Positions 1 through 11,956 of a stretch of DNA of 64,000 nucleotides are shown here, one piece after another. This DNA comes from Chryseobacterium binzhouense (GTDB lineage: Bacteria > Bacteroidota > Bacteroidia > Flavobacteriales > Weeksellaceae). Position 1 is the first letter of the stretch. Each line of letters starts with the position of its first letter. Made by a program: the position numbers and the translations under genes. The stretch spans positions 1-64,000 of the forward strand of contig NZ_VKOG01000005.1 in the NCBI RefSeq assembly GCF_007474545.1, read 5' to 3'. The notes beneath the pieces are model-generated. The model worked only from the letters and a program-made list of their open reading frames with translations, had not been told where the DNA came from and searched no databases.

Positions 1-91
1 TTCTTCTGCACATTTTTACATCTCCCACATCACCCAACTTTTTCATTTCCCATTCCCCTTCAAACTCCGGAAATCGTAAATTAGGAAACAT
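1..91 (-). CDS. hsdS: HsdS-like type I restriction specificity subunit, 5' end only
   Basis: Read on the minus strand from an ATG at 91-89, this gives 30 codons containing NLRFPEFEGEWEMKKLGDV. Motifs of this kind (RFPEFEGEW followed by KKLGD) open the target-recognition domains of type I specificity subunits in Bacteroidetes. The frame stays open to the window edge, so the rest lies outside. Upstream the frame is closed by a stop near 118, and I find no TAnnTTTG promoter between it and the divergent recombinase, so this could be a silent cassette rather than the expressed gene. HsdS would choose the DNA target for HsdM methylation and HsdR cleavage. The assignment rests on a short motif only. 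Confidence 0.7.
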   Translation of the reverse strand, partial: MFPNLRFPEFEGEWEMKKLGDVGDVKMCRR

Positions 92-147
92 AAAGTTCAA
101 TTTTCCCCAAGTACATTAGGGAGTTTTTATCTCATTAATTCTCAGTC

Positions 148-179
148 TTGACGATTTTATGGTAAAGGCTCTAACTTTA
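148..179 (+). promoter_or_regulatory. Possible promoter of the recombinase gene
   Basis: TTG at 148-150 and TAACTTTA at 172-179, spaced 21 nt, match the Bacteroidetes TTG/TAnnTTTG consensus except for the last base. It lies about 25 nt before the recombinase ATG. Confidence 0.35.
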
Positions 180-205
180 GGATTTTAATCTAAACCAAAA
201 AAATT

Positions 206-1132
206 ATGACAAGAAAGAAAACATTGGCAGAAATCGCTGAATTATGGAAGAATGACAAAAAGCTGTATGTGAAAAAATCAACCTTTTCGGCTTATGTGCT
301 GTTGCTGGAAAACCATTTATTGCCTGTATTTAAAGACTATTCTGAGATTGAAGATGAAGATGTACAGAAGTTTGTATTTCAAAAACTGGAGCAGGGATTG
401 AGCCAGAAAAGTATCAAAGATATTCTCATTGTTTTGAAAATGGTGCTGAAGTTCGGGGCAAAGAATAAATGGATTGAGTTTATCAATTTCGATGTGCAGT
501 ATCCCACAGTTCGCGAAACTCACACCATTGAAGTGTTAAGCAGAACGCATCAGAAAAAAGTGATGAACTATATTCAGGAGCATTTTACTTTTAGAAATCT
601 GGGAGTTTATATCTGTCTTTGTTCGGGAATGCGCATTGGGGAAATCTGTGCCCTGACTTGGGAAGATATTGATACGGACAACGGAATTATCAACATCCGC
701 AAAACCATTCAGAGAATTTATGTGATTGATGGAGGAGAAAGAAGAACAGAATTGTTGATTGATTCACCTAAAACCAAAAATTCCATCCGGGAAATCCCAA
801 TGAGCAGAGATTTGCTAAGAATGCTGAAACCCTTTAAGAAAATTGTAAATCCGGCTTTTTATGTACTGACCAATGATTCTAAACCCACAGAACCCAGAAC
901 TTACCGAAGCTATTACAAAAACCTGATGCGTTATCTAGAAATTCCGGATATTAAATTCCACGGTTTGAGGCACAGTTTTGCGACACGATGTATCGAAAGC
1001 AAATGCGACTATAAAACAGTGAGTGTTTTACTGGGACATTCCAATATCAGTACCACTTTAAATTTGTATGTGCATCCCAATTTGGAACAGAAGAAAAAAG
1101 CCATCGACCAGATGTTTAAAGCGCTAAAATAG
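206..1132 (+). CDS. Tyrosine recombinase/integrase beside a type I R-M locus
   Basis: The 308-residue protein has an N-terminal core-binding region (about 1-105) and a C-terminal catalytic domain. The expected catalytic set is visible: R143 in GMRIGE, H252 and R255 in HGLRHSFAT, H278 in LLGHSN and Y288 in LNLYVHP. A lysine in the SPKTKNS segment (about 188-192) is the likely beta-hairpin Lys. Such enzymes cut and rejoin DNA through a covalent phosphotyrosine link. It sits between a divergent hsdS fragment and hsdR. In many Bacteroidetes type I loci a recombinase in this position inverts or swaps hsdS segments, and I infer the same role here. No other phage or conjugative gene lies nearby, so a prophage integrase is less likely. 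Confidence 0.88.
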   Translation: MTRKKTLAEIAELWKNDKKLYVKKSTFSAYVLLLENHLLPVFKDYSEIEDEDVQKFVFQKLEQGLSQKSIKDILIVLKMVLKFGAKNKWIEFINFDVQYPTVRETHTIEVLSRTHQKKVMNYIQEHFTFRNLGVYICLCSGMRIGEICALTWEDIDTDNGIINIRKTIQRIYVIDGGERRTELLIDSPKTKNSIREIPMSRDLLRMLKPFKKIVNPAFYVLTNDSKPTEPRTYRSYYKNLMRYLEIPDIKFHGLRHSFATRCIESKCDYKTVSVLLGHSNISTTLNLYVHPNLEQKKKAIDQMFKALK

Positions 1133-1164
1133 TTGCAGTTATCACGGATTATTTCTTACATTTG
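1133..1164 (+). promoter_or_regulatory. Predicted hsdR promoter
   Basis: TTG at 1133-1135, directly after the recombinase stop, and a full TACATTTG at 1157-1164 with 21 nt between them match the Bacteroidetes sigma consensus. This would give hsdR its own transcript with a leader of about 60 nt. Confidence 0.5.
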
Positions 1165-1176
1165 GGAAAACTAAAA

Positions 1177-1213
1177 AAACTTTGTCAGGGGTTCTGAAGC
1201 TTTGACAAAGTTT
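1177..1213 (+). promoter_or_regulatory. Long hairpin in the hsdR leader
   Basis: AAACTTTGTCA (1177-1187) and TGACAAAGTTT (1203-1213) form a perfect 11-bp stem around a 15-nt loop. It lies between the predicted hsdR promoter and the hsdR ATG. No T-run follows, so it is not a typical terminator. It may be a dispersed palindrome or a leader structure affecting hsdR expression. Confidence 0.5.
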
Positions 1214-1233: not shown

Positions 1234-4125
1234 ATGTCAAGTCAGCCGGAATATATTTTAGAGCAAAAATTAGTAGAACAATTACAACAATTAGGTCATA
1301 AAAAAGTTACGATATGTAATGAGGCAGACCTTATTAAAAACCTAAAGAATCAGCTCGAGATTCACAATAAAAAAACATTCTCAGATTCTGAGTTTGAAAA
1401 AATCCTCAATCATCTTTCCAAAGGAAATGTTTTTGAAAAGGCTAAAACATTACGTGACCGTTTTCATTTTTTTAAAGATGACGGTACTTCGGAATGGATT
1501 GAATTCATCAGTCAGGATCATTGGTGCCAGAATCAATTTCAGGTAACGAATCAAATTGCTCAGGAAGGAAATTTTAAAAACAGATATGACGTAACCATTC
1601 TCATCAACGGATTACCTTTGGTGCAGATTGAGCTGAAACGCCGCGGTCTGGAAATGAAAGAGGCTTTTAATCAAATTGACAGATACAGGCATCAATCATT
1701 TAATTCAGGGTATGGATTGTTTAACTACGTTCAAATTTTTGTTATCAGTAATGGAGAAAATACAAAGTATTATGCCAACAGCATCAATACCCGTCAACAA
1801 ATAAGTGAAAGCTTTGAACAAACCTTTTACTGGTCTGATGAAGAAAATAATAATATAACCAAAATTGATGAATTTGCTTCAGCTTTCTTAGAGCCTTGTC
1901 ATTTAGCTAAAATGATTACAAAATATATTGTACTTAATCAAGCTCATAAAGTTTTAATGGTTTTAAGACCCTATCAATATTATGCTGTTGAAAAAATCGT
2001 AGACCGCGTAAAGAATACTAATAAAAATGGTTTCATATGGCATACTACGGGTTCGGGAAAAACATTAACTTCTTTTAAAGCAAGTCAGATTTTAAAAGAA
2101 ATTCCTAATGTAGAAAAAGTAATTTTTGTAGTTGACCGAAAAGATCTGGATTACCAAACCCAGATTGAATTTAATGCATTTGAAGAAGGAAGTGTAGATA
2201 CAACAAATAATACAAAAAACTTAGTTCAAAAGCTTTCGGGTAATACTAAATTAATTGTTACAACACTCCAAAAGCTTAATACTGCTATAACGAAAGAAAA
2301 ACACGGAAATAAGATTGAGCATCTGAGAAATAAAAAGGTAATCTTTATTTTTGATGAATGCCATAGAAGCCAATTTGGAGAAACCCACCAAAACATTAAA
2401 AAGCATTTCCAGAAAGCACAAATGATTGGCTTTACAGGAACTCCAATTTCAGAGGTTAATTCTGTTGGATTATTGGATGGAAAACCTGCTACAACCAATC
2501 GGTTATTTGAAGAACCATTACACAAGTATGTAATTACTGATGCAATTGGTGATGGAAATGTTTTGAAATTTTCTGTAGAATATGTTGGTCGATATAAAGA
2601 AAAAGAAAACAGTAATAATTATATAGACACCGATGTAGAGGCAATAGATACCCGGGAACTTTTAGAGAGTCCACAAAGAATTGAGAAGATAACAGATTAT
2701 ATTATTTCTCAATATAATCGAAAGACAAATAACAGAATGTTCAATGCTATGTTCTGTGTAAGTAGTATTGATGTTTTGCAACAATATTATGACTTGTTTC
2801 AAAAGAAAAAAGAAGAGGGAAAGCATAATCTAAAAATAGCAACGATATTCAGCTATGGAACTAACATTCCTGAAAAAAATGCAACCGGAAATTTTAAATT
2901 GGAAGATGAAGATGATTTTGTACTTGTTGCTGAGCCAAGAGCTAATTACGGAGATTCTCACGACAGAGTAGTCTTGGAAGGATATATTGGGCATTATAAT
3001 GAAATGTTCAGTATGAATTACACTACAAAAGATAGCCAAAGCTTCTATGAATATTATAATAATGTTTCTAAAAGAGTTAAAAATAAAGAAATTGACTTAC
3101 TGATAGTTGTAAATATGTTTTTAACAGGATTTGACAGTAAAACATTAAATACACTATTTGTTGATAAAAATTTAAAATATCATGGGTTGATTCAGGCATT
3201 TTCAAGAACTAACAGAATTCTGGACAAGAGTAAATCCCAAGGTAATATTGTTTGCTTCCGCAATCTGAAGTCTGCAACAGATGATGCAATAACGCTTTTT
3301 TCAAACAAGAATGCTATTAAAGATATTATTATTCTTCCAATAGAAGACTATGTTGAACTTTTTAATGATGCATTAGAAAAACTAAAGGTTGTTGCACCTG
3401 AAATACAAACTGTCAGTACTTATAAATCTGAAGAAGAAAAATTAGAATTCATAAAAGCTTTCCGTGAGGTAATGCGTGTTCTGAATGTATTAAAATCATT
3501 TGCAGATTTTAGTTTTGATAAGATTGAAATAGATGAAGATGAATTTGAAGGATATAAGGGTAAATATCTTGATTTATGGAATGAAGTTAGAGTAGGACTG
3601 AGTAATGGAAATGGAAAAGTGAGCATTCTTGATGATGTGGATTTTGAGCTAGAACTTATTCATCGTGATGAAATTAATGTAAATTACATCCTATCTCTTT
3701 TAGCTAATCTTACCGAATCAAATCTAAAAGGTGATAAATTAGAAAAAAAGAAAAAAGAAATCCGAGATATCCTTTCCGGCGATGCCAAGCTTCGAAGTAA
3801 AAAAGAACTGATAGAAAAATTCATTGAAGAAAACCTGCCACATATTTCTGACGGAGATAACGTCAATGAAGAATTTGAAAAATACTGGAATAAAGAAAAA
3901 AACTTTGCTTTTGAAAAAATAGCAACCGAAGAATCTTTAAATAAAGAAAAGTTCAGAGATGCTATCGACGATTTTCTTTTTACTTCCAAAACACCCAAGA
4001 TAAGTGACACCTTAAAACTCCTTGAAATAAAGCCAAAGCTTACTGAACGTAATAATATCGGAAGAAGAATTATTCAGAAAGTGCAGGATTTTGTGGAGGT
4101 GTTTATTGATGGGGTGGCAAGTTAA
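1234..4125 (+). CDS. hsdR: Type I restriction enzyme, HsdR (nuclease/translocase) subunit
   Basis: The 963-residue protein has the HsdR domain order. An N-terminal PD-(D/E)xK nuclease contains D119, E133 and K135 in YDV...QIELK. A superfamily 2 helicase motor follows with Walker A (HTTGSGKT, about 270-277), DECH (374-377) and the GFTGTP motif. A C-terminal helical region should bind HsdM. With HsdM and HsdS it would translocate unmethylated DNA and cut it far from the target site. No hsdM is in the window, and only the start of an hsdS-like gene is visible on the other strand. The rest of the system presumably lies to the left. McrBC genes follow in the same direction after 81 bp. Confidence 0.95.
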   Translation: MSSQPEYILEQKLVEQLQQLGHKKVTICNEADLIKNLKNQLEIHNKKTFSDSEFEKILNHLSKGNVFEKAKTLRDRFHFFKDDGTSEWIEFISQDHWCQNQFQVTNQIAQEGNFKNRYDVTILINGLPLVQIELKRRGLEMKEAFNQIDRYRHQSFNSGYGLFNYVQIFVISNGENTKYYANSINTRQQISESFEQTFYWSDEENNNITKIDEFASAFLEPCHLAKMITKYIVLNQAHKVLMVLRPYQYYAVEKIVDRVKNTNKNGFIWHTTGSGKTLTSFKASQILKEIPNVEKVIFVVDRKDLDYQTQIEFNAFEEGSVDTTNNTKNLVQKLSGNTKLIVTTLQKLNTAITKEKHGNKIEHLRNKKVIFIFDECHRSQFGETHQNIKKHFQKAQMIGFTGTPISEVNSVGLLDGKPATTNRLFEEPLHKYVITDAIGDGNVLKFSVEYVGRYKEKENSNNYIDTDVEAIDTRELLESPQRIEKITDYIISQYNRKTNNRMFNAMFCVSSIDVLQQYYDLFQKKKEEGKHNLKIATIFSYGTNIPEKNATGNFKLEDEDDFVLVAEPRANYGDSHDRVVLEGYIGHYNEMFSMNYTTKDSQSFYEYYNNVSKRVKNKEIDLLIVVNMFLTGFDSKTLNTLFVDKNLKYHGLIQAFSRTNRILDKSKSQGNIVCFRNLKSATDDAITLFSNKNAIKDIIILPIEDYVELFNDALEKLKVVAPEIQTVSTYKSEEEKLEFIKAFREVMRVLNVLKSFADFSFDKIEIDEDEFEGYKGKYLDLWNEVRVGLSNGNGKVSILDDVDFELELIHRDEINVNYILSLLANLTESNLKGDKLEKKKKEIRDILSGDAKLRSKKELIEKFIEENLPHISDGDNVNEEFEKYWNKEKNFAFEKIATEESLNKEKFRDAIDDFLFTSKTPKISDTLKLLEIKPKLTERNNIGRRIIQKVQDFVEVFIDGVAS

Positions 4126-4206: not shown

Positions 4207-6438
4207 ATGGCAAGTCTACCAAACCAATTGACTAAAGAACAGGTTATTACAGCTTTAGAATATATTATTACTAATAATGTTGATTTAAAAGGTTCTACTA
4301 AGTATGATTTAGAATATAAAGGTAAAGCTTATCCTCCAAAAGAAGTTGTCAGATGGGCTGCCAGATTAGCCAATATTAAAGACTGGCAAAAGAAAAGGTT
4401 TTATGGTGGCGATAATACTAATGCACCGTTAAGAAAAATGGGTTTTACTATTAAAAACAAACTTAATGAAGATGTTAATCTGAATATAATTAAAAAATAT
4501 AAAAGCATTGTTTTAGAAGACAATAGAAATGAAATCTATAAATGGAAGTTAATAAACAGTTTTAAAGGACGACCAGATATATTAGCTGATAATTTCGCTT
4601 CAGAAATCACATCAGTAAATTATAACAATTTAATTTATCATAGTGGTATTGCTGTAAGAAATCATATCTCTAAGGAGTTTCCAGAAGATTATAGAAATGC
4701 ATTTAGAATACTATTTAATGAAGATATTCTCTTGCAAGAAAGAATCGTAGAATTTCAAAATGAAGTTTCGGAAATTTATAAAAAGATGGGAGAGAATCTA
4801 AATCATCATCACGACGAGCGTACAATTTCTACCTATCTGACTTTTAAATATCCTGAAAAATATACTTTATATAAAAGCTCTTTTTATAAATCTTATTGTG
4901 ATTTATTAGGAATACCGACAGAAAGTAAAAATAAAAAATATTTACATTATCTCAGCTTAGTTGATAATTTAATATCTAATTACATTGTTAAGGATCAAGA
5001 ATTACTCAATCTGAAAAATAGATTTTTAACTAAGGATTGTTTTTCTGATAGCAATAATTTAATATTTGCTCAAGATATACTTTACCAAGTTCTTAACTCA
5101 ATTGATGATACTAACGATGATATTATACCTATTGAAATGATTAATAAAATATCAACACCTCTCAACCAAATCCTCTACGGTCCTCCCGGAACTGGAAAAA
5201 CATATAACACCATCAACAAAGCAATAAGCATTGCAAATCCTGAATTTAATGTCAATCAAAGCAGAGAAATCTTAAAAGCTGAATACAATCGATTGGTAGA
5301 AGCCGGACAAATTGTTTTTACAACGTTCCATCAAAGTATGAGCTATGAAGATTTTATTGAAGGAATAAAACCTGTAATGAATGAAGATGAAGGTGAGTTA
5401 AATTATGAAGTTCAAAATGGAATTTTTAAAGAAATATGTAAACATGCTGGAGAAATAAAGGAAGCAATAGTTGTTGATGATTTTGATGAAAGTTGGGAAA
5501 AGCTAATTGAATTAGTAAAAGAAAAGATTGCAGATGAAAAACTGCTTAAAATTGGATCGTGGGAATATGGATTATCATCAAAAGAATCATTAAAATACTC
5601 GTCATTAAATTCTCCCTCCCAGTATACTTTTACAATTACCAAACAAAATATTCAGGATGCCTATCAAAATAAACAGGCTAGACCTTCGGGAGCATTTCAA
5701 AAGGATATGGGTGATATTGTTCAATTTATGAAAGTGAGTTGTGGTTTGCCAGATTATGAACAAAGAGAAGAAAAATTTATAAGCAAACATCAGAATAAGA
5801 ATTTCGTTCTAATCATCGACGAAATCAACCGTGGCAATATCTCTCAGATTTTCGGTGAATTAATTACCTTAATCGAGGATAGCAAACGCTTAGGAAATGC
5901 AGAAGAAATACAGGTTACTTTACCTTACAGCAAAACAAAATTCGGAGTACCATCCAATCTCTACATTATAGGTACAATGAACACCGCAGATCGAAGTGTA
6001 GAAGCGTTAGATACAGCTTTGAGAAGACGGTTCAGCTTTGTTGAAATGATGCCAAATTCAAATATTGTGGCAAATGAAACTTTTCAGGATAGCTTTCTGA
6101 GAGTTGATGTGATGCAAAAGATTAATCAAAGACTAGAACTGCTTTTAGATAAAAACTATACTTTGGGACATTCTTATTTTCTGAAAGATAATTTCAGGTC
6201 ATCCTTCAAAAACGAAATTATCCCTTTGCTACAGGAATATTTCTACAACGATTGCGGCAAGATAGGCTTGATTTTAGGAAAAGGTTTTGTAAGAGAAAAA
6301 GAAATTTCTAAAGCTAATCAGCACAGTGTATTTGCAGATTTTGATACAAGAAACGAAATTGAAATCATGAAGTCCTATGAACTTATTCCATTTGAAGAAG
6401 TTGATTTTGAATTTGCTTTACAATTATTATTAGCGTAG
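4207..6438 (+). CDS. mcrB: McrB-like AAA+ GTPase of a type IV (modification-dependent) restriction system
   Basis: The 743-residue protein has a C-terminal McrB motor with YGPPGTGKT (about 324-332), Walker B LIIDEINRGNIS (about 535-546) and GTMNTADRS with ALRRRF (about 588-610). This class uses GTP to translocate DNA and drives cleavage by McrC. The first 80 residues contain a YKGKAYPPKEVVRWAA segment, which resembles the head domain in front of some McrA/McrB-type modification readers. The middle part is unrecognised and probably sets target specificity. DNA for the N-terminal half is markedly AT-rich (74 G+C in 300 nt at 4441-4740, about 25%) compared with mcrC (about 36%), suggesting a mosaic gene. 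mcrC starts 2 bp after the stop, so the two are translationally coupled. Confidence 0.88.
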   Translation: MASLPNQLTKEQVITALEYIITNNVDLKGSTKYDLEYKGKAYPPKEVVRWAARLANIKDWQKKRFYGGDNTNAPLRKMGFTIKNKLNEDVNLNIIKKYKSIVLEDNRNEIYKWKLINSFKGRPDILADNFASEITSVNYNNLIYHSGIAVRNHISKEFPEDYRNAFRILFNEDILLQERIVEFQNEVSEIYKKMGENLNHHHDERTISTYLTFKYPEKYTLYKSSFYKSYCDLLGIPTESKNKKYLHYLSLVDNLISNYIVKDQELLNLKNRFLTKDCFSDSNNLIFAQDILYQVLNSIDDTNDDIIPIEMINKISTPLNQILYGPPGTGKTYNTINKAISIANPEFNVNQSREILKAEYNRLVEAGQIVFTTFHQSMSYEDFIEGIKPVMNEDEGELNYEVQNGIFKEICKHAGEIKEAIVVDDFDESWEKLIELVKEKIADEKLLKIGSWEYGLSSKESLKYSSLNSPSQYTFTITKQNIQDAYQNKQARPSGAFQKDMGDIVQFMKVSCGLPDYEQREEKFISKHQNKNFVLIIDEINRGNISQIFGELITLIEDSKRLGNAEEIQVTLPYSKTKFGVPSNLYIIGTMNTADRSVEALDTALRRRFSFVEMMPNSNIVANETFQDSFLRVDVMQKINQRLELLLDKNYTLGHSYFLKDNFRSSFKNEIIPLLQEYFYNDCGKIGLILGKGFVREKEISKANQHSVFADFDTRNEIEIMKSYELIPFEEVDFEFALQLLLA

Positions 6439-6440
6439 AA

Positions 6441-7676
6441 ATGTTAAAAAAAGATTCTATTCAGGTTTTTGAACACAGTTTTTTGCCAATTGGAGAAAAA
6501 GGATTTGAACAACGTCATTTTGTGGCGTTGTCCAAACTCAATGCTCTGCACGATTATCAATATTTTGATTTGAAATATAATGGAGTAGTGTTCAAACAAT
6601 TTGTAGGTGTCATTCAGGTTGATGGTTTGACGATAGAGATTCTTCCAAAGATAGACCGTAATGAATCTGAAGAGCATAAATCCAAATGGCGGGACGTTCT
6701 CATCGAAATGCTTCGGGTTACCAAAAAATTAAAAATCCAGCAGGTCGGTCAGGCGAATGTTTCAAGGCAATCCATCCATCTGTTGGATATTTATTTTGAA
6801 TGGTTTATAAATGAAGTACAGTTGTTGATTCATCAAGGTTTAATCAAACAATACTACAGAGAAACTGGAAATGTAAAAGCTTTAAAAGGCAAGTTGGAGT
6901 TTGCTGGTCATATCAATAAAAATTTGGTTCATAAAGAAAGATTCTACACCACGCATCAGGTTTACGACAAAGACCATTTGATTCATCAGATTTTAGGACA
7001 GGCTTTAGATATTATTGAACATCTTTCAAAAGGTACTTACCTCTACAGCAAATGTAAAACTGTACAGCTGGATTTTCCGGAAGTCAAAGTAATAAAAGCT
7101 GATAAAACTACTTTTTCCAAAATTCTGAAGTCGAGAAAAACTGCACCTTACGAAACAGCACTATCCATCGCTAGATTGATTATATTGAATTATGCTCCCA
7201 ACATTTCAAGCGGTTCAGAGAAAATGCTTGCTTTGCTTTTTGATATGAACAGTCTTTGGGAAGAATATGTTTTGGTAAGATTGAAGCAGAGTGTGCAGGA
7301 AAGCGATGCCGGGATCGAATTGTACGGGCAGGATTCAAAAGTATTCTGGAATGGAATTAAGATTCGCCCTGACATTGTTTTGAAGAAAAATGGAGAGGTT
7401 GTTTTAGTTATTGATACCAAGTGGAAAAATATTGATCAATCACAACCTTCCACGCACGACTTGAGGCAGATGTATGTATATAATGAATATTGGAGAAGTA
7501 CACAATCTATATTACTATATCCTTCTAAAACTAACAATTTGAATGATTTTAAAAGTTTTGAAAAAATCGGAGAATTAAAAAAACACCAGTGTGCTTTGGC
7601 TAGACTGAATATTCTAAATTCTGACAGTAAACTAGATGATACAATTGGATTTCGGTTATTGGAAACTATTGAATAA
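6441..7676 (+). CDS. mcrC: McrC-family nuclease subunit
   Basis: The 411-residue protein resembles the McrC family in length and layout. An N-terminal beta-rich region carries FKQFVGVIQVDGLTIEILPK, a central helical part follows, and a C-terminal PD-(D/E)xK nuclease core RPDIVLKKNGEVVLVIDTKWK lies at about 308-328. McrC gives the nuclease activity to the McrB ring when modified DNA is met. The start codon is 2 bp after the mcrB stop, so one operon is certain by layout. The next gene is convergent and starts beyond a 40-bp gap, which marks the right border of the defence island. Confidence 0.9.
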   Translation: MLKKDSIQVFEHSFLPIGEKGFEQRHFVALSKLNALHDYQYFDLKYNGVVFKQFVGVIQVDGLTIEILPKIDRNESEEHKSKWRDVLIEMLRVTKKLKIQQVGQANVSRQSIHLLDIYFEWFINEVQLLIHQGLIKQYYRETGNVKALKGKLEFAGHINKNLVHKERFYTTHQVYDKDHLIHQILGQALDIIEHLSKGTYLYSKCKTVQLDFPEVKVIKADKTTFSKILKSRKTAPYETALSIARLIILNYAPNISSGSEKMLALLFDMNSLWEEYVLVRLKQSVQESDAGIELYGQDSKVFWNGIKIRPDIVLKKNGEVVLVIDTKWKNIDQSQPSTHDLRQMYVYNEYWRSTQSILLYPSKTNNLNDFKSFEKIGELKKHQCALARLNILNSDSKLDDTIGFRLLETIE

Positions 7677-9367: not shown

Positions 9368-9916
9368 ATGTCAAAAAAAATTGCCATTTTAGCAACACAC
9401 GGATTTGAAGAAAGCGAACTGAAATCACCAAAAGAACACATTGAGCAGCAGGGATGGACTGCCCACATCATCAGTCCGGAATCGGGAAGCATCAAAGCAT
9501 GGTCTGAGAAAAACTGGGGAAAAGAATACACTGTAGATAAAACATTAAGCGAAGCATCGGCATCAGATTATGATGCGCTGGTTTTGCCGGGCGGTGTCAT
9601 CAATCCTGATCAGTTAAGAACCAATGAAGATGCTTTGTCATTTGTTAAAGATTTTTTCAGCCAGCATAAACCGGTTGCTGCAATCTGCCACGGACCGCAG
9701 ATTCTCATCAATGCTGGTGCGGTTGAAGGAAGAAATCTTACTTCGGTAAAAGCCATTAGCCAGGATTTGAAAAATGCAGGAGCCCAATGGGAAGACAGTG
9801 AAGTAGTGGTAGACAGTGGTTTGGTGACCAGCAGAACTCCCGAAGATTTACCGGCATTCAATGCAAAACTTGTAGAAGAAGTAAAAGAAGGGAAACATCA
9901 GGAGCAGACGCTGTAA
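9368..9916 (+). CDS. DJ-1/PfpI-family protein (type 1 glutamine amidotransferase fold)
   Basis: The 182-residue protein matches the PfpI/YhbO class. An N-terminal KKIAILATHGFEESEL strand-loop carries the conserved Glu near position 14-15. The nucleophile elbow AAICHGPQIL holds the catalytic Cys at about residue 112 followed by His. Members act as deglycases, chaperones or stress proteins in the cytosol, and the exact activity cannot be read from sequence. It stands alone, with its own strong terminator. Confidence 0.88.
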   Translation: MSKKIAILATHGFEESELKSPKEHIEQQGWTAHIISPESGSIKAWSEKNWGKEYTVDKTLSEASASDYDALVLPGGVINPDQLRTNEDALSFVKDFFSQHKPVAAICHGPQILINAGAVEGRNLTSVKAISQDLKNAGAQWEDSEVVVDSGLVTSRTPEDLPAFNAKLVEEVKEGKHQEQTL

Positions 9917-9952
9917 AACAGTAAGGTACACTATACGTTATAGTAAACAGTA

Positions 9953-9987
9953 AAGGTTTAAGTCCAAATGGATTTAAACCTTTTTTA
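9953..9987 (+). terminator. Rho-independent terminator after the PfpI-like gene
   Basis: AAGGTTTAAGTCC and GGATTTAAACCTT form a 13-bp stem with an AAAT loop, followed by a T-run. A smaller palindrome ACTATA-CGT-TATAGT lies just upstream at 9930-9944. Confidence 0.85.
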
Positions 9988-10095
9988 GTAAAGGTGAAAA
10001 ATTTAATCTGTATGATTATTTTCAGAATACAAATCTTCCATGTTTTTATTTCTTCCGAATAACTTCTTCATTATTAATTTGTTAAATAATAGACA

Positions 10096-10132
10096 TTGTT
10101 GATGTTTAATTCATTAAAAATCACTAATTTCG
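10096..10132 (+). promoter_or_regulatory. Possible typA promoter
   Basis: TAATTTCG at 10125-10132 resembles TAnnTTTG with one change, and TTG occurs at 10096-10098 and again at 10099-10101. Spacing is 23 nt or more, at the long end of the usual range. It lies about 18 nt before the typA ATG. Confidence 0.35.
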
Positions 10133-10150
10133 CACCCGTAAAAATCATTC

Positions 10151-11956
10151 ATGCAAAACATTAGAAATATTGCGATTATCGCACACGTTGACCACGGTAA
10201 AACTACCTTGGTTGATAAAATTATTCATGCTACAAACATTTTCAGAGAAAATCAGGAAAGTGGAGAATTAATAATGGATAACAACGATCTTGAAAGAGAA
10301 AGAGGAATTACCATTTTATCAAAAAATATTTCTGTTACTTATAAAGACACAAAAATTAACGTAATCGATACTCCTGGTCACGCCGATTTTGGTGGGGAAG
10401 TAGAGAGAGTATTGAAAATGGCAGACGGAGTTATTTTGTTGGTGGATGCGTTCGAAGGACCAATGCCACAGACAAGATTCGTATTGCAGAAAGCTTTGGA
10501 ATTGGGATTAAGACCATTGGTGGTAATCAACAAAGTAGATAAGCCAAACTGTCGTCCGGACGAAGTTCACGATCAGGTTTTTGATTTATTCTTCAACCTG
10601 GAAGCGACTGAAGAGCAGCTGGATTTCCCAACATTCTACGGTTCTTCAAAACAGGGATGGTTCAACACATCACTGGAACAGACTGAAGATATTTTGCCAT
10701 TACTGGATGGTATTTTACAATATGTTCCGGCTCCGAAAATAGAAGAAGGAAACCTTCAGATGCAGATTACTTCTCTTGATTATTCTTCTTTCCTGGGAAG
10801 AATTGCGATCGGAAAAGTGACAAGAGGTGAGCTTAAGGAATCTCAGTGGATCGGTCTTGCTCAGGCAGACGGAAAAATTGCAAAAGGAAAAATAAAAGAA
10901 TTATACGTTTTCGAAGGTTTAGGAAAGAAAAAAGTAACTGAAGTTCAGGCAGGAGATATCTGTGCCGTAGTAGGTTTTGATGCTTTCCAGATCGGAGATT
11001 CTTTTGTAGATCTTGAAAACCCTGAACCGTTGGAAAGAACAGCTATTGATGAGCCTACGTTGAACATGACGTTCTCTATCAACAATTCACCTTTCTTCGG
11101 TAAAGACGGTAAATATGTAACTTCTAATCACCTGAAAGAAAGATTACACAAAGAATTAGAGAAAAATCTTGCATTGAGAGTTCAGCAGACAGATGATGCC
11201 AATACATTCCTTGTATTCGGTAGAGGTATTCTTCACTTATCTGTTTTAATTGAAACCATGAGAAGAGAAGGATATGAAATGACCATCGGTCAGCCGCAGG
11301 TAATCCTGAGAGAAATTGATGGTGAAAACTGTGAGCCTTACGAATCTTTGGTAGTGGATGTACCTGAAGAATATGCTTCAAGAGTTATTGATCTGGCTAC
11401 TCAGAGAAAAGGTGATCTTCACATTATGGAAACAAAAGGTGAAATGCAGCACATGGAGTTTGAAATTCCTTCAAGAGGTTTGATCGGGTTGCGTTCTCAG
11501 ATGTTGACAGCAACTGCAGGAGAAGCAATTATGGCACACCGTTTCACAGAATACAAGCCTTTCAAAGGAGCAATTCCGGGAAGAAACAATGGGGTATTGA
11601 TCAGCAAAACTCAAGGTCCTGCTACTGAATATTCAATCAATAAACTACAGGACAGAGGTAAATTTTTCGTTGATCCGGGTGAGGAAATCTATGCAGGAAT
11701 GATTATAGGTGAACAGAACAAGCCGGGAGATTTGGTGGTAAACATTGTTGAAGCTAAGCAGCTGAACAATATGCGTGCAGCCGGAAAAGATAAAGATACC
11801 GGTGTTGCACCAAAAATCTTGTTCTCTCTGGAAGAATGTATGGAATATATTCAGGCAGATGAAGCAATTGAAGTTACTCCTAATTTCATAAGAATGAGAA
11901 AGAAAATTCTTTCTGAAGAAGAAAGAAAAAGAGTGGAAAGAACGGCGAAAGCATAA
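10151..11956 (+). CDS. typA: Translational GTPase TypA/BipA
   Basis: The 601-residue protein has the full TypA layout. The G domain shows G1 AHVDHGKTT (about residues 10-18), GITILSKN in switch I, G3 DTPGHADFGGEVERV and G4 NKVDK. Domain II, EF-G-like domains III and V and the TypA-specific C-terminal domain (SRGLIGLRS, TEYKPFKG, PGRNNGVL) follow. It binds ribosomes and is linked to assembly and stress adaptation. It is a single gene with its own terminator. Confidence 0.97.
   Translation: MQNIRNIAIIAHVDHGKTTLVDKIIHATNIFRENQESGELIMDNNDLERERGITILSKNISVTYKDTKINVIDTPGHADFGGEVERVLKMADGVILLVDAFEGPMPQTRFVLQKALELGLRPLVVINKVDKPNCRPDEVHDQVFDLFFNLEATEEQLDFPTFYGSSKQGWFNTSLEQTEDILPLLDGILQYVPAPKIEEGNLQMQITSLDYSSFLGRIAIGKVTRGELKESQWIGLAQADGKIAKGKIKELYVFEGLGKKKVTEVQAGDICAVVGFDAFQIGDSFVDLENPEPLERTAIDEPTLNMTFSINNSPFFGKDGKYVTSNHLKERLHKELEKNLALRVQQTDDANTFLVFGRGILHLSVLIETMRREGYEMTIGQPQVILREIDGENCEPYESLVVDVPEEYASRVIDLATQRKGDLHIMETKGEMQHMEFEIPSRGLIGLRSQMLTATAGEAIMAHRFTEYKPFKGAIPGRNNGVLISKTQGPATEYSINKLQDRGKFFVDPGEEIYAGMIIGEQNKPGDLVVNIVEAKQLNNMRAAGKDKDTGVAPKILFSLEECMEYIQADEAIEVTPNFIRMRKKILSEEERKRVERTAKA

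Follow-up and report, generated by a model that had tools for sequence, protein, structure and literature searches.

A probable invertible hsdS switch in a Type I restriction-modification locus of Chryseobacterium binzhouense, with one recombinase flank joined to two hsdS genes in the same assembly

The left end of the analyzed DNA very probably belongs to a phase-variable (inverting) Type I restriction-modification (R-M) locus made up of hsdM, an expressed hsdS1, a presumably silent inverted hsdS2, a tyrosine recombinase, and hsdR. The whole stretch of 64,000 nucleotides, here called the window, comprises positions 1 to 64,000 of NZ_VKOG01000005.1 from Chryseobacterium binzhouense (GCF_007474545.1). 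This is contig C12 of a 3.61 Mb genome in 16 contigs, and window base 1 is the end of that contig. Inverting Type I R-M systems are already known; this further case comes with a well-defined 5' core in its hsdS genes and with direct evidence from the assembly.

An earlier note on this DNA had read the left edge as a piece of hsdS divergent from a recombinase and had suggested looking further left for hsdM, a full hsdS, and extra hsdS pieces. Extension to the left recovered hsdM, a full hsdS1, and a second full, inverted hsdS2 on contig C1, the relevant stretch of which is given in L005 coordinates. The right end of C1 (its last 88 bases) is identical to window 79-166 over exactly 88 bp, so C1 continues into the window. 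The gene order across C1 and the window is hsdM, hsdS1, inverted hsdS2, tyrosine recombinase, and hsdR. A complete Type I R-M set is present, with hsdM and hsdS on C1 and hsdR in the window, connected through the 88-bp overlap. The features of the locus are as follows.

L005 7310-8878, plus strand: hsdM, on contig C1
L005 8919-10118, plus strand: hsdS1, full, PF01420
L005 10180-11397, minus strand: hsdS2, full and inverted, PF01420
Window 1-88, minus strand: 5' end of hsdS1, inverted and attached to the recombinase side
Window 79-88, no strand: site A, proposed 10-bp crossover core, AATTAGGAAA; TTTCCTAATT in hsdS sense
Window 79-166, no strand: 88-bp overlap with the right end of C1 (hsdS2 side), by sequence identity
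Window 89-205, no strand: flank on the side of the recombinase, carrying at 148-179 a relaxed promoter-like match for that gene
Window 206-1132, plus strand: tyrosine recombinase, proposed hsdS invertase, PF00589
Window 1133-1164, plus strand: Bacteroidota-type promoter-like sequence before hsdR, TTG-N21-TACATTTG, by pattern match
Window 1234-4125, plus strand: hsdR, Type I restriction subunit (PF04313, PF18766, PF12008; TIGR00348; PADLOC REase_I)

The neighborhood holds further genes of interest. A Type II CRISPR-Cas set with Cas9, Cas1, and Cas2 occupies L005 165-5482 on C1, accompanied by at least 6 CRISPR repeats at a spacing of 77 bases; it ends ~1.8 kb upstream of hsdM, which places the switch in a defence region. 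Directly after hsdR, an McrBC-like pair consisting of an AAA ATPase gene (PF07728) and an McrC-family gene (PF10117) spans window 4207-7676. Similar hairpin-forming stretches, judged by eye to be of the CTTTGTCA...TGACAAAG type, occur at window ~1180-1212 after the recombinase and at L005 ~10130-10165 after hsdS1, and they may be terminators.

The HsdS-type opening noted earlier on the minus strand at the left edge, NLRFPEFEGEWEMKKLGDV, is present and corresponds to the start of the hsdS1 product, MKKQDTNMGNFPNLRFPEFEGEWEMKKLGDV as encoded on contig C1. Window 1-88 and the reverse complement of L005 8949-9036, within the intact hsdS1, are identical in 88 of 88 bases. A separate third hsdS cassette was rejected as the identity of the left-edge piece, which is the 5' end of hsdS1 in opposite orientation and breaks off because contig C12 ends there. 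Window 167-1200 has one copy in the readable genome, and from this single-copy recombinase flank and the two overlaps it follows that in C1 the flank runs into hsdS2 and in C12 into hsdS1. None of the 78 89-mers that cross the window junction (window 1-166) occurs in the compared 11.5 kb of C1. A shared stretch of exactly 88 bp also links four other contig-end pairs in the same assembly, and 88-base overlaps at a branch are the leftover of a de Bruijn assembly with 89-mers. Given this recurrence, the junction resembles a branch of the assembly graph at which the reads held both orientations. We infer from the assembly structure that both junction forms were present in the reads and coexisted in the culture. 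The proposal of hsdS inversion or shuffling made in the earlier note is supported by the genes and repeats recovered on C1 and by the assembly, in which one recombinase flank is attached to two hsdS genes.

Of the four junctions expected, the C. binzhouense assembly contains three. The reciprocal junction, hsdM-hsdS2, was not found in its readable sequence; five contigs, 1.0-2.7 kb long, appear as N and lie outside that sequence. An incomplete set of junctions would also fit an assembly artefact, in which the hsdS genes are fixed and the first 88 bases of the window were misjoined, and short-read assemblies do err at repeats. However, such a misjoin is very improbable, as a 10-bp repeat is unlikely to mislead an assembler with 88-bp overlaps, and the junction 89-mers are without exception new relative to the compared stretch of C1. 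Breaks at the same core that recur in related genomes argue against it as well.

A scan of genome contigs yielded 73 loci, and 71 with a near full-length recombinase remained after L122 and L123, which are partial or weak recombinase hits, were dropped; L048-L050 were dropped as duplicates of L105, L085, and L110. An inverted hsdS was found upstream of the recombinase in 52 of the 53 loci with at least 300 bp of upstream sequence, and hsdR was found downstream in 67 of the 70 loci with at least 1500 bp of downstream sequence (exceptions L078, L084, and L113). The upstream exception, L108 of Mucilaginibacter oryzae, carries at ~9720-10106 only a short forward hsdS start and a recombinase without its first residues, with no inverted hsdS, and is apparently a decayed or deleted switch.

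Contig ends within 300 bp of the recombinase occurred upstream in 18 of 71 relatives and downstream in 1 of 71. The fate of the hsdM contig was followed in 28 genomes selected because their recombinase contig ended upstream, 25 of which had an hsdM match. Six of the 28 were excluded (three lacked any hsdM match, and in G070, G075, and G084 the match reached only 44-47%), and in 12 of the 22 remaining genomes, all preselected in this way, the hsdM contig ended no more than 400 bp after hsdM. These breaks upstream of the recombinase and behind hsdM are the recurrence that speaks against a misjoin in the window.

The hsdM side and the recombinase side were compared in 11 of those 22 genomes. The same hsdS 5' end was present on both sides over 95-123 bp in G061, G071, G072, and G086, and 22-43 bp were common to both sides in G065, G074, G078, and G082. 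No match of at least 14 bp between the sides was found in G060, G062, and G066, which is expected if only the 10-bp core is common; in G060 and G062, the core closes the hsdM contig and opens the recombinase contig. Parapedobacter koreensis (G086) has a recombinase contig that opens with 95 bp of hsdS1, and hsdS2 ends the hsdM contig, having only 20 bp in common with that piece of hsdS1. In Cloacibacterium normanense (G061), the hsdM contig holds both hsdS1 and hsdS2, and its far end beyond hsdS2 is the hsdM-side flank again, with only the 10-bp core common to the recombinase contig, which begins with hsdS1. By this contig structure, hsdM-hsdS1, hsdM-hsdS2, and recombinase-hsdS1 junctions all occur in one assembly, and C. 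normanense has the reciprocal product hsdM-hsdS2, whereas the readable C. binzhouense assembly is without it. No second hsdS was seen in G071 and G072; they possibly hold two identical first TRDs, as do L062 and L117.

The inverted repeats that the hsdS copies were expected to share are a 10-bp stretch at their 5' ends and a perfect 34-base repeat in their centre. When 110 and 140 bp at the 5' ends of hsdS1 and hsdS2 were compared, no shared stretch was longer than the 10-bp core at window 79-88, and core and central repeat each lie at the same codon offset in both genes. This core is the proposed location of the crossover. In the mechanism proposed here, the recombinase would exchange strands within the core at the 5' ends of both hsdS genes, flipping the ~2.4-kb hsdS1-hsdS2 block and bringing the hsdS2 body behind hsdM. 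The 34-bp central repeat is a likely second exchange point, where a further exchange would swap the 3' halves (TRD2), and the two exchanges combined could give four HsdS proteins with four DNA specificities. The reading frame remains open in each of the four predicted hsdS combinations (399, 382, 411, and 428 codons). Methylation would be expected to change upon switching. Near the central site, the contigs of L066, L069, and L070 end 657-743 bp upstream of the recombinase without a common end base. Heterogeneity at the central site is unsupported by these contig ends, and it is the identity of the repeat alone that argues for use of the site. By eye, site A and the central site (site B) are loosely alike at most.

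The inversion could be real and still be the work of general homologous recombination or of another recombinase, with the neighboring recombinase incidental. Some relatives have long near-identical repeats that such recombination could use, since hsdS1 and hsdS2 share ~500 bases and the same first TRD in L062 (503/503) and L117 (527/528); it looks as if one hsdS had been copied onto the other in these two loci. In C. binzhouense, however, the common 5' stretch is just 10 bp, which is too short for ordinary homologous recombination, and across the relatives the recombinase adjoins an inverted hsdS in all but one of the 53 testable loci and keeps its active-site residues. Exchange by other means is considered quite unlikely on these grounds, even with the pneumococcal precedent that rarer inversions are independent of the recombinase PsrA, as described in passages of PMC7096588.

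Of the loci that have hsdM on the same contig (45 in all, with the composite C. binzhouense locus counted), 33 could be compared by core pattern. The core 10-mer was identical between both hsdS copies in 33 of 33 loci, with ten variants across loci. The permutation null had a mean of 7.2, and 0 of 100,000 permutations were as high. Most positions are already set by the search pattern, which leaves positions 1, 3, and 6 as the main informative ones. Between hsdS1 and hsdS2, identity is 0.24 at position -1, jumps to 1.00 over the core, and declines inside the gene. Among the other 12 loci, four with extra sequence after hsdM have a shared repeat with a core (L075, L084, L100, and L117), and two have a variant one (L087 and L092). 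L055, with unlike cores, counts against concerted change. A clear common core was not found in L051, L079, and L112, the shared repeat of L118 starts only at the end of the core, and L108 is without hsdS2. To judge from these comparisons, the core is evolving in concert in both hsdS copies. Chryseobacterium koreense has two such loci, L112 and L118, and their 5' site sequences differ.

The central site was tested in 29 of the 45 loci, 16 being left out. Its variable dinucleotide was concordant in 25 of 29 loci (null mean 11.3; 0 of 50,000 permutations as high), with the 4 discordant loci counting against. At both sites, the longest common stretches were longer within than between loci in the 35 loci compared (0 of 20,000 stratified permutations each), after 10 of the 45 had been left out by spacing.

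Exchange of TRDs was also followed across species. A total of 85 HsdS proteins were collected, of which 75 were split at the centre and 10 were unsplittable, and TRDs were clustered by single linkage at 55% identity, giving 33 multi-member clusters. Members from both hsdS1 and hsdS2 were found in 24 of these 33 clusters, 16 TRD1 clusters were paired with more than one TRD2 cluster, and 4 clusters mixed first and second TRDs. The first TRD of the C. binzhouense hsdS1 recurs in hsdS2 of L071, L075, and L117. From species to species, a given TRD can occur in hsdS1 or in hsdS2, and new TRD1-TRD2 pairings are seen.

The ORF at window 206-1132 encodes a tyrosine recombinase (PF00589, E 7e-29). The complete catalytic set ascribed to it earlier is present as R143, K189, H252, R255, H278, and Y288, which we take to be its catalytic residues. 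H252, R255, H278, and Y288 are invariant in 75 of 75 aligned recombinases (the C. binzhouense protein included) and R143 is kept in 74 of 75, L108 having been left out of the alignment for its missing start. An identity as the housekeeping recombinase XerC or XerD was rejected, with scores below both NCBIfam cut-offs (82.9 bits against 335.15 for XerC and 73.2 against 329.6 for XerD). The hsdR gene said to follow the recombinase was confirmed as ORF 1234-4125, with matches to PF04313, PF12008, and TIGR00348. The recombinase of the window probably catalyzes the hsdS exchange. Its closest named relatives belong to Chryseobacterium.

The family is patchy, being found in 11 of 395 Bacteroidota genomes at E <1e-80 (C. 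binzhouense included), and at E <1e-100 in 6 of 35 same-genus and 1 of 23 same-order relatives. It extends to Bacteroidales, where a Phocaeicola massiliensis plasmid record holds hsdM, several hsdS, and the recombinase. In a Bacteroides finegoldii plasmid record (L201 8001-8924; 63% identical recombinase), no hsd match was found within 8 kb, and none was found in the 2.8 kb examined for L160, which has a 66% identical recombinase. The patchy distribution and the B. finegoldii homologue away from hsd genes are what would be seen if the recombinase came from a mobile element beside a duplicated hsdS, the pair then serving as a store of between-strain diversity with no flipping within a population. 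This is very unlikely in light of the recurring gene order, the concerted core, and the C. binzhouense recombinase flank joined to both hsdS genes. A recombinase that serves the hsdS switch is the reading retained.

Promoters were searched with the exact pattern TTG-N(17-24)-TAnnTTTG and a relaxed form of it. An exact Bacteroidota-type match precedes hsdR at window 1133-1164, and the recombinase has a relaxed match on the plus strand at 148-179. The earlier note had found no promoter of the local type before the hsdS piece and had suggested that it may be silent. The first part holds for the exact pattern, which has no match facing hsdS2, and is weakened by one relaxed match that does face it (minus strand, window 185-212). 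These are matches of sequence and no proof of promoters. On this basis, the inverted hsdS2 is likely silent, and presumably only the hsdM-proximal hsdS is expressed.

Inversion in Type I systems has been described in several lineages. In pneumococcus, passages of PMC4948785 and PMC7096588 describe an inverting Type I system in which PsrA drives inversion at the 15-bp IR1. As presented there, the SpnIII/cod locus of S. pneumoniae is like the present one in having hsdM, an expressed hsdS with silent hsdS partners, a neighboring tyrosine recombinase (PsrA), and short and longer inverted repeats, with inversion swapping TRDs. That locus has three hsdS and three repeats, whereas two hsdS genes are found here. 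Unlike in those descriptions, the recombinase here has the silent hsdS on one side and hsdR on the other, and one of the exchange points falls at the extreme 5' end of hsdS, whereby its entire body would be swapped. The likeness to PsrA is drawn from anatomy.

Inverting Type I systems have also been reported in oral Bacteroidales, according to passages of PMC5690328 and PMC7394358. In the latter, the loci of P. gingivalis and T. forsythia resemble the present one in that hsdM is followed by a functional hsdS, with a silent copy on the other strand and inverted repeats common to the two; its passages on these two species are without this recombinase or its site. As described in the same survey, identical repeats of at least 20 bp are required, by which the 10-bp 5' core would be missed and the 34-bp central repeat would not. 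The R-M gene shufflons of Bacteroides fragilis (PMC5729914) offer another Bacteroidota case in which Type I R-M genes are shuffled. Passages of the survey PMC5903667 give 13 species with signs of inversion in their Type I systems, and an inversion signature in one Flavobacteriia sample, for which they do not name the gene. Among open-licence papers on Chryseobacterium, Flavobacterium, Flavobacteriia, and Sphingobacterium, no report of such a locus was found.

Draft genomes can be searched for such switches in a simple way by means of the 10-bp core and clustered contig ends, and this search would catch some switches whose 5' site escapes a 20-bp repeat-length filter. The recombinase family and the core together open the mechanism to a direct test in a laboratory strain. 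A wider reading is put forward as a tentative one that we stop short of favoring: one dedicated hsdS-invertase lineage may have spread through Bacteroidota with its R-M module, each locus keeping a private 10-bp core that is held in concert in both hsdS and insulates co-resident loci, and flipping may be so frequent that routine cultures, including type strains, are mixtures without a single methylome. If that were true, public assemblies with contigs that break off at the core would amount to a catalogue of mixed cultures. If the locus flips, cells within one culture would differ in the DNA sites that are methylated and restricted, which would bear on phage defence, on transformability, and possibly on gene expression.
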